A stretch of 64,000 nt of DNA from Paracoccaceae bacterium (GTDB taxonomy: Bacteria > Pseudomonadota > Alphaproteobacteria > Rhodobacterales > Rhodobacteraceae). Both the position numbers and the translations under genes were made by a program. Where the stretch lies: NCBI GenBank assembly GCA_902632125.1, contig CACPBQ010000001.1, positions 62,001 to 126,000 on the forward strand, written 5' to 3'. Positions 34,140 to 36,251 of the stretch are shown here, one piece after another. Position 1 is the first letter of the stretch; every line of letters begins with the position of its first letter. A model generated the notes under the pieces. The model did not search any database, was not told where the DNA came from, and saw nothing but the letters and a program-made list of their open reading frames with translations.

Positions 34140-34316
34140 ATGCCTAAAAAAGATAAAGAACTTCCACCAGAAGCTTTAAGAGCACTAGAAGAGGCTGAGA
34201 AGCGTCGTTTGGAAAAAAAAGATATAAATTTACCAAAAGAACTTGGTGGCCGTGAAGGTGTGGAACCTGTCAGATATGGAGATTGGGAAAAAAAAGGCAT
34301 TGCAGTTGATTTCTAG
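34140..34316 (+). CDS. DUF1674 / succinate dehydrogenase assembly factor 4-like protein, 58 aa (not in ORF track)
   Basis: MPKKDKELPPEALRALEEAEKRRLEKKDINLPKELGGREGVEPVRYGDWEKKGIAVDF*: canonical C-terminal GGREGxEPxRYGDWExKGxxxDF motif. Confidence 0.95.
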   Translation: MPKKDKELPPEALRALEEAEKRRLEKKDINLPKELGGREGVEPVRYGDWEKKGIAVDF

Positions 34317-34318
34317 GG

Positions 34319-35227
34319 TCAAACCAATTTGTAGCCTTGCTGTAATCTGAACCCTAAAAGAAAAACATCTGACTTTTGAGCAGATTTACCCGGCCTCTGC
34401 GCCTCAGTTATCTCAACTGCCTTATGACCACATGCAATTGAAAAACCCCTATCTAAAACTGTCCCAGGCTCATTTTTTTGGTCAATGACCTTCGAAGCTA
34501 ACAATTTGATCCGCTCTCCATTTATTTCTGTCCAAGCTCCTGGATAAGGCGATAAAGCTCTAATTTTCTGGTCGATAATTTTAGCAGGCAATGACCAGTC
34601 AATTTTTGCTTCAGACTTATGGATCTTACTTGCATATGTGACACCAACAGCGGCCTGGCTCTGCAATTTATAATCAGATAAATTTTCCAGCACTTCAATT
34701 ATAAGCTGTGAACCTACTAAACTTAATTTTTCTGATAAAATTTTTGCAGTATCATTTTCTGTAATTTGGACTTTCTTGGAAGATAGGATTGGACCTGTAT
34801 CCAGCCCCTCATCCATTTTCATGATGCAAACGCCTGTCTCTTCATCTCCCTCCATAATTGCTCTTTGAATTGGTGCAGCCCCACGCCAACGCGGCAAAAG
34901 TGATGCATGTATATTCAAGCAGCCAAGCCTTGGAGATAATAGAATTTTGCTAGGTAGTATTAGACCATAGGCAACTACAATAGCTATATCAGCCTTTAAC
35001 TCCCTAAAAATATTTTGGTCTTTTTCAGATTCAAAATTCTTTGGGTTATGTACAGTTAGACCTAGATTAAGCGCTTCTTTGTGAACATCACTGAGGTTTA
35101 CTTTTCTGCCACGCCCCGAGGGCCGAGGTGGCTGCGAATAAACCGCGCATATTTGGTGGTTACTCCGATACAAAGCCTTAAGAGCAGGAACAGAAAACTT
35201 TGGTGTTCCCATGAAAACTAATTTCAT
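34319..35227 (-). CDS. fmt: methionyl-tRNA formyltransferase
   Basis: MKLVFMGTPKFSVPALKAL, LNIHASLLPRWRGAAPIQRAI, MDEGLDTGPIL. Confidence 0.97.
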   Translation of the reverse strand: MKLVFMGTPKFSVPALKALYRSNHQICAVYSQPPRPSGRGRKVNLSDVHKEALNLGLTVHNPKNFESEKDQNIFRELKADIAIVVAYGLILPSKILLSPRLGCLNIHASLLPRWRGAAPIQRAIMEGDEETGVCIMKMDEGLDTGPILSSKKVQITENDTAKILSEKLSLVGSQLIIEVLENLSDYKLQSQAAVGVTYASKIHKSEAKIDWSLPAKIIDQKIRALSPYPGAWTEINGERIKLLASKVIDQKNEPGTVLDRGFSIACGHKAVEITEAQRPGKSAQKSDVFLLGFRLQQGYKLV

Positions 35228-35718
35228 TTTTTCTTCTTCACCTTCCTAAGCAATATATCTCTTTTGACCCTAGATAAGTGGTCAAAAAACATTTTCCCAT
35301 TCAAATGATCAATTTGATGTTGAATAGATGTTGCCCAGAGCCCTGTAAAATCCTTCCTATCGATAAAGCCCTTTTTATTTAAAAATCTTACAGTAACTTT
35401 TTTAGGCCTTTTGATTTTTGCAGATATACCCCTCAAATTTGGACTAGCTTCCTCTGTCTCACTATACTCCAACGATGCTTGAAGAATCTCAGGATTAGCA
35501 AGTTTTACAGGCTTACTTCGGGTTTCTGAGGCATCAATAACAGCTAAACGCAAGTTTACGCCAATTTGTGGAGCCGCTAGACCAATGCCAGGCATCGCAT
35601 TCATTGTATCTATCATATCGTCCCAAATCAAAATTACATCTTCTGTGATTTCCGTTATCTCATCAGCTCTAGATCGAAGTCTTTTATCAGGCCATTTCAA
35701 GAACCTTTTGACCGCCAT
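35224..35718 (-). CDS. peptide deformylase paralogue with degenerate active site
   Basis: PDF fold (GIGLAAPQIGV) but EGCLS is replaced by EASPN and HEIDH by HQIDH; basic KVKKKK tail; between def and fmt. Confidence 0.92.
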   Translation of the reverse strand: MAVKRFLKWPDKRLRSRADEITEITEDVILIWDDMIDTMNAMPGIGLAAPQIGVNLRLAVIDASETRSKPVKLANPEILQASLEYSETEEASPNLRGISAKIKRPKKVTVRFLNKKGFIDRKDFTGLWATSIQHQIDHLNGKMFFDHLSRVKRDILLRKVKKKK

Positions 35719-36251
35719 TATTCAACACCGCGTAATTTTTCACGTTTGAATTTCTTCATTTTACGCGTTATTAGCTGTCTCTTCATAGGTCCTAAATAGT
35801 CAATAAACAATTTTCCGTTTAAATGATCAATTTCATGTTGTATGCAAGTCGACTTTAGACCAGAAAACTCTTCGGAATGTTGTTTTCCTTTTAAATCAAC
35901 CCACTCCACTTGCACAAGCTCTGGTCGCGTAATCTCAGCAAAATGTTCAGGAATCGAAAGACATCCTTCTTCATAAATACTTTTTTCTTCAGAGCAGGCA
36001 GTTATTAATGGATTAATCATAACAATTGGATCCGGTTCTTCGTTCTCTTTTTTGGCACAATCCATTACAAATATTCGTTCTAATACACCAATCTGAGGAG
36101 CAGCCAAGCCAATCCCTGGTGCATCATACATAGTCGCCATCATATCTTCTGTTAATTCAATAACGGCATCAGTTATGCGCTCAACTTCTACGGATTTTTT
36201 TTTCAATCGTGCATCTGGGTGTAAAACAATAGGTCTGATCATCATACTCAT
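35718..36251 (-). CDS. def: peptide deformylase (canonical)
   Basis: GIGLAAPQIGV, EEGCLSIPEH, QHEIDHLNGKLFIDYL. Confidence 0.98.
   Translation of the reverse strand: MSMMIRPIVLHPDARLKKKSVEVERITDAVIELTEDMMATMYDAPGIGLAAPQIGVLERIFVMDCAKKENEEPDPIVMINPLITACSEEKSIYEEGCLSIPEHFAEITRPELVQVEWVDLKGKQHSEEFSGLKSTCIQHEIDHLNGKLFIDYLGPMKRQLITRKMKKFKREKLRGVE

Follow-up and report, generated by a model that had tools for sequence, protein, structure and literature searches.

A family-wide, constrained pseudo-deformylase encoded between def and fmt in Rhodobacteraceae

The gene def2, located between a canonical peptide deformylase (PDF) gene and fmt in a Rhodobacteraceae genome, encodes a constrained pseudo-deformylase, i.e., an ancient, PDF-derived protein that is under strong purifying selection and is not a product of decay. 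Judged from its active-site residues, the protein has very probably lost deformylase activity. The reading of its role that is favored here, with a probability of about one half, is that Def2 would dock at the exit-tunnel site of Def and bind nascent N-termini without hydrolyzing them.

The def2 locus and the replaced active-site residues

On the minus strand of the window, i.e., the 64-kb stretch of DNA that was analyzed, three co-directional genes follow each other in the order def1, def2, fmt. These genes and the features of def2 discussed below are:

35718–36251, minus strand: def1, canonical peptide deformylase of 177 aa; intact open reading frame with GIGLAAPQ, EGCLS and HEIDH
35224–35718, minus strand: def2, pseudo-peptide-deformylase of 164 aa (P0002); intact open reading frame, PF01327, PDF fold, family-wide orthologues
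35566–35589, minus strand: intact motif I of def2, GIGLAAPQ, with Gln50 kept in the alignment
35437–35451, minus strand: degenerate motif II of def2, EASPN for EGCLS (Cys90 to Ser, Leu91 to Pro, Ser92 to Asn), with S90 and P91 invariant in 189 orthologues
35305–35319, minus strand: degenerate motif III of def2, HQIDH for HEIDH (Glu133 to Gln, both metal His kept), with Q133, H132 and H136 invariant (n = 189)
35230–35271, minus strand: basic C-terminal helix of def2, counterpart of the ribosome-docking helix of E. coli PDF; helix 150–163 in the model, with K/R at 150, 157 and 160
34319–35227, minus strand: fmt, methionyl-tRNA formyltransferase (TIGR00460 at 293.7 bits)

A first-pass annotation of this DNA had reported the intact reading frames, their motifs and the 1-bp overlap between def1 and def2 (TAATG), all of which were reproduced exactly. 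It had also described def2 as translationally coupled, which is borne out by the 4-bp overlap between def2 and fmt (ATGA, 35224–35227) and by the overlap with the stop of the upstream PDF gene, retained in 65 of 81 loci (4 bp in 56, 1 bp in nine). In 92 of 181 loci, 10 bp or less separate the end of def2 from the start of fmt, the position of which is a rough estimate. The neighbor of def2 is always def1 or a third PDF paralogue, called mid, and fmt is usually found downstream of def2. In the source genome, a 1.9-Mb assembly of 79 contigs that is approximately 70% complete, def1 and def2 are the only PDF-family genes found. Between fmt and an rsmB-like gene, a further short frame that is missing from the list of open reading frames runs on the opposite strand (34163–34320); by eye it resembles a DUF1674/SdhAF4-type protein.

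PDFs were gathered by family-wide, genus-wide and named-genome searches, giving 189 distinct Def2 proteins, and all of them were aligned to one profile; residues are numbered as in E. coli PDF (sequence verified against 1BS4). Of the three motifs that mark active PDFs, Def2 has the first, with Gln50 in 189/189, and deviates in the second and third. Ser90, Pro91 and Gln133 are each found in all 189 orthologues, position 129 is Ser in approximately 100% and position 92 is Asn in 97% of them. The corresponding residues in def1 and outgroup PDFs (n = 245) are Cys90, Leu91, Glu133, Cys129 and Ser92, in all or in 98% of the sequences. Def2 shows no variation at His132, His136, Asp135, Gln50, Gly45 or Glu88. 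An unaltered motif I is seen in def2 of the window and in most orthologues; in six genomes from one sub-clade of the source genus (L097–L102), its first Gly is missing and SCIGLASSQ, SCIGLACNQ or SCVGLACNQ is found instead of PGIGLAAPQ, while S90, P91, Q133 and Q50 stay.

In established PDF enzymology, Cys90 is a metal ligand and Glu133 the general base, i.e., the catalytic Glu. The backbone NH of residue 91, which contributes to holding the formyl oxygen, has no equivalent in proline. The first-pass annotation had noticed a Cys-to-Ser change of the metal ligand and a Glu-to-Gln change of the catalytic residue, and the E. coli-numbered alignment places these at C90 and E133; the L91P, S92N and C129S changes were missing from it. 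It had further raised the question whether the two degenerate motifs are conserved jointly, and S90, P91 and Q133 indeed occur together in 189/189 orthologues, in line with its view that deformylase activity is unlikely. Because the metal-ligand Cys, the formyl-oxygen residue and the catalytic Glu are replaced jointly and without exception, the protein has very likely lost the chemistry of a deformylase. Complete conservation of S90, P91 and Q133, together with the absence of internal stops among the orthologues listed, argues that this signature results neither from chance nor from decay.

It is improbable that Def2 is still a deformylase, either a slow one or one that is active with an unusual metal or under an unusual condition, as has been proposed for odd type 3 PDFs. 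The fold and motif I are intact, and deviations in the motifs are not always fatal to activity according to Lamberioux et al. (2025; PMC12690207). However, every orthologue has lost a metal ligand together with the catalytic Glu, and the cluster already contains a canonical def1. A new catalytic activity on another substrate, with the two His and Ser or other residues as ligands, is unlikely as well. Neither the metal His pair nor D135, E88 or Q50 varies, and the replacements S90-P91-N92 and Q133 are fixed or nearly so, as would be expected for a re-tooled active site; on the other hand, the general base is lost, and around the site the alignment shows no Cys, Asp, Glu or His that has become newly fixed as a ligand.

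Distribution, phylogeny and selective constraint

Of 246 near-complete genomes from its order, 239 gave a def2 match in a profile search, as did 83 of 101 genomes sampled one per genus. The profile scores form two separate groups, with E-values of at most 1e-67 for def2 and at least 1e-54 for the other group. In other alphaproteobacterial orders, def2 was found in none of 332 genomes. All 27 family members sampled have a PDF that matches a DNA pattern for QHQxDHxxG, whereas no such PDF is present in any of 372 other proteobacteria. Nine matches to this pattern outside the Rhodobacteraceae were inspected as candidates for HQxDH PDFs of separate origin in the rest of the phylum and proved to be other proteins or chance frames.

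Since def2 is missing from seven of the 246 near-complete genomes, it is not indispensable; the main text of the Tn-seq study of R. sphaeroides makes no mention of deformylases. Genomes without def2 retain a canonical def, mostly with fmt nearby, and no def2 remnants were found between def1 and fmt in these genomes. In the def1 portion of the tree, where support is weak in places, several of them branch between genomes that carry def2, and this interspersion makes repeated loss of def2 likely. The space between def1 and fmt measures 0.28–0.95 kb in four genomes without def2 (L202, L213, L214 and L218); in L202 it is occupied by an unrelated open reading frame that by eye resembles a SAM-dependent methyltransferase.

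def2 is a vertically inherited core gene. A phage origin was considered and no viral relative was found. As for a plasmid origin, one of the matches listed reaches orthologue-level identity, and it is located on a 1.58-Mb Pseudorhodobacter replicon; the other plasmid matches listed are at most approximately 42% identical and are therefore ordinary PDFs. This mode of inheritance, with no viral match and that single plasmid record, also counts against the idea that Def2 protects against natural PDF inhibitors, as an inhibitor-binding decoy or as a resistant copy. Accessory PDFs of Vibrio confer resistance to actinonin, and marine bacteria make PDF inhibitors (both PMC12690207). Nevertheless, this explanation is very improbable, as a resistant copy would have to be active and hydroxamates chelate the metal, which the Def2 site may not hold.

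Constraint on def2 is comparable to that on its neighbors in two sub-clades of the source genus, as shown by the median dN/dS (NG86) of each (def2, 0.10 and 0.13; def1, 0.07 and 0.09; fmt, 0.12 and 0.15); these values are approximate because dS amounts to 0.7–1.1. Mean pairwise identity over 83 genomes is 66% for def2 vs 70% for def1. The tree of 189 Def2 proteins has a total length of approximately 35 substitutions per site, and the invariance at positions 90, 91 and 133 can thus not be due to drift. In a tree built from def2, def1, mid and outgroup PDFs, def2 forms a single clade with a support of 100/100. Its stem is long (1.12) and its internal branches are ordinary, which points to one burst of change followed by constraint. 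No intermediates retaining Cys90 or Glu133 were seen, the deepest def2 branches included.

That def2 is a functionless, decaying duplicate is hardly credible. Its catalytic residues are gone and some genomes do without it; against this stand the dN/dS of approximately 0.1, the invariant replacements, the lack of remnants and an identity close to that of def1. Random decay among orthologues, which the first-pass annotation had named as the outcome that would speak against a functional paralogue, is thus not what is found, and frameshifts are likewise absent from the def2 orthologues.

Fold, C-terminal helix and proposed role

Def2 matches PF01327 over the whole domain (138 bits vs a cut-off of 22.8), and its AlphaFold2 model has a pLDDT of 95.5 and a pTM of 0.90. 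The best Foldseek matches of this model are E. coli PDF structures (E 6.6e-19, TM 0.90–0.93, approximately 40% identity). Mean entropy in the cleft is 0.43 bits vs 1.01 bits elsewhere in the protein (permutation p = 0.0006), and as its positions are more conserved than the remainder, the cleft is still under selection. It is less conserved than the cleft of def1, of which the mean entropy is 0.16. Outside the cleft, W31, M41, A58, A73 and F143 are conserved specifically in def2.

The C-terminal helix of E. coli PDF contacts uL22 by L149, K150, R153 and K157, and 23S rRNA by K160 and R163 (PMC12690207). In Def2, positions 150 and 157 are Lys or Arg in all orthologues and Lys160 is present in 97%, and in def1, too, Lys or Arg is almost invariably found at 150, 157 and 160; position 153 is mostly Met in def1 as well as in def2. 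The median net charge of the C-terminal stretch is +8 in def1, +6 in def2 and -1 in the third paralogue, mid. A basic KVKKKK tail had been singled out by the first-pass annotation; it is present, but it is not unusual, being the end of a basic helix common to both PDFs. The conserved helix residues suggest that Def2 docks at the ribosome. Judging by its sequence, Def2 would be suited to the ribosomal site of def1, in contrast to the third copy.

Together, these elements outline how the favored reading, ribosome docking and binding without hydrolysis, could work. Def, Def2 and Fmt would be made from one mRNA, with the overlapping genes keeping their translation matched. The C-terminal helix of Def2 would dock at the exit-tunnel site of Def, at uL22 and 23S rRNA, and the remaining cleft would hold the N-terminus of the nascent chain without cutting it. 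As a consequence, deformylation of some chains might be delayed or spared, or access of Def might be buffered. Residue invariance, cleft conservation, dN/dS, the single clade, the basic helix, the gene overlaps and the fold match were counted in favor of this proposal. Counted against it are the loss of Cys90, which may abolish metal binding in Def2, and the change of Leu91 to Pro, by which formyl recognition could be weak because the NH thought to contact the formyl oxygen is removed. Some PDFs with altered motifs, such as that of T. brucei, are active according to Lamberioux et al. (PMC12690207), which was also counted against it, as was the absence of def2 from seven near-complete genomes. 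If docking at the exit tunnel does take place, Def2 would be a non-catalytic factor devoted to N-terminal processing and kept throughout a marine family of major ecological importance. Its sequence suggests a dead enzyme put to new use at the ribosome.

Replacement of Glu by Gln in an HExxH site is the change made in the laboratory to obtain substrate-trapping metalloproteases. A more specific version of the favored reading has a fairly low probability: Def2 might be a naturally fixed, family-wide substrate-trap deformylase that, docked at the ribosome, binds formyl-Met N-termini uncleaved and so keeps or times formylation on chosen chains.

One of the two main rivals, the other being a new catalytic activity, is the rather unlikely explanation that Def2 is dead and acts via Def1 or Fmt, as a heteromeric partner, a chaperone or a stoichiometric regulator, instead of acting on ribosomes or nascent chains. 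It would fit the constant position of def2 beside def1 or mid, its usual place ahead of fmt and its translational coupling, and the conserved residues outside the cleft (W31, M41, A58, A73 and F143) could form an interface. However, a partnership alone does not account for the conserved basic helix and cleft residues, and the gene order fits simple co-translation equally well. Evidence of Def binding, which the first-pass annotation had put forward beside ribosome binding, was not found, and we know of no hetero-oligomeric PDF.

Relation to known deformylases and to the third paralogue

Def2 shares with the type 1 enzyme E. coli Def (1BS4/1ICJ) the fold, motif I, both metal His and the basic C-terminal helix. 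It differs from it in the fixed or nearly fixed replacements of Cys90 by Ser, Leu91 by Pro, Ser92 by Asn and Glu133 by Gln, and in a shorter C-terminus. The inactive type 3 accessory PDFs of S. aureus and S. pneumoniae resemble Def2 in having changed motifs beside a working PDF, but as they are described, motifs I and II are changed (PMC12690207), whereas in Def2 these are motifs II and III. Def2 of V. cholerae and the integron PDFs are, like the rhodobacteraceal def2, Def paralogues with altered residues near the active site, but they keep the three motifs and are active (PMC12690207).

Clustered PDF genes have been reported in 98.1% of Rhodobacterales reference species, with three copies in 62.5% of genomes and a rationale that was called elusive (Lamberioux et al., 2025; PMC12690207). 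These are the def2-bearing clusters described here, and the sections of that paper drawn on here make no mention of the loss of catalytic residues in one copy. As one clustered copy has an invariantly disabled active site, this published puzzle becomes testable. A search for literature on Roseobacter deformylases yielded nothing relevant. PDF-derived pseudoenzymes are already known; a family-wide, triply disabled and coupled form appears to be undescribed in the literature searched. In annotation, TIGR00079 calls def2 a peptide deformylase (129 bits vs a cut-off of 104), and def2 genes annotated in this way should not be counted as active enzymes. No def2-specific NCBIfam equivalog scored above its cut-off, the only hits being the general TIGR00079 and, for one orthologue, NF001159.

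The third PDF gene, mid, is located between def1 and def2 in 94 of 189 distinct loci and is not present in the source genome. It has Arg44 (GRGLAAPQ) in 95 of 95 sequences and mostly intact motifs II and III (L004–L085, L116–L195), it lacks the basic ribosome-docking helix residues at 150, 157 and 160, and it evolves fast, with a pairwise identity of 52% vs 72% for def1. The mid gene probably encodes a working deformylase whose specificity for substrates or inhibitors has changed. One genome (G327; loci L206/L222) carries def1, mid and fmt, with a 4-bp overlap, and no def2; the two accessory copies thus need not occur together.
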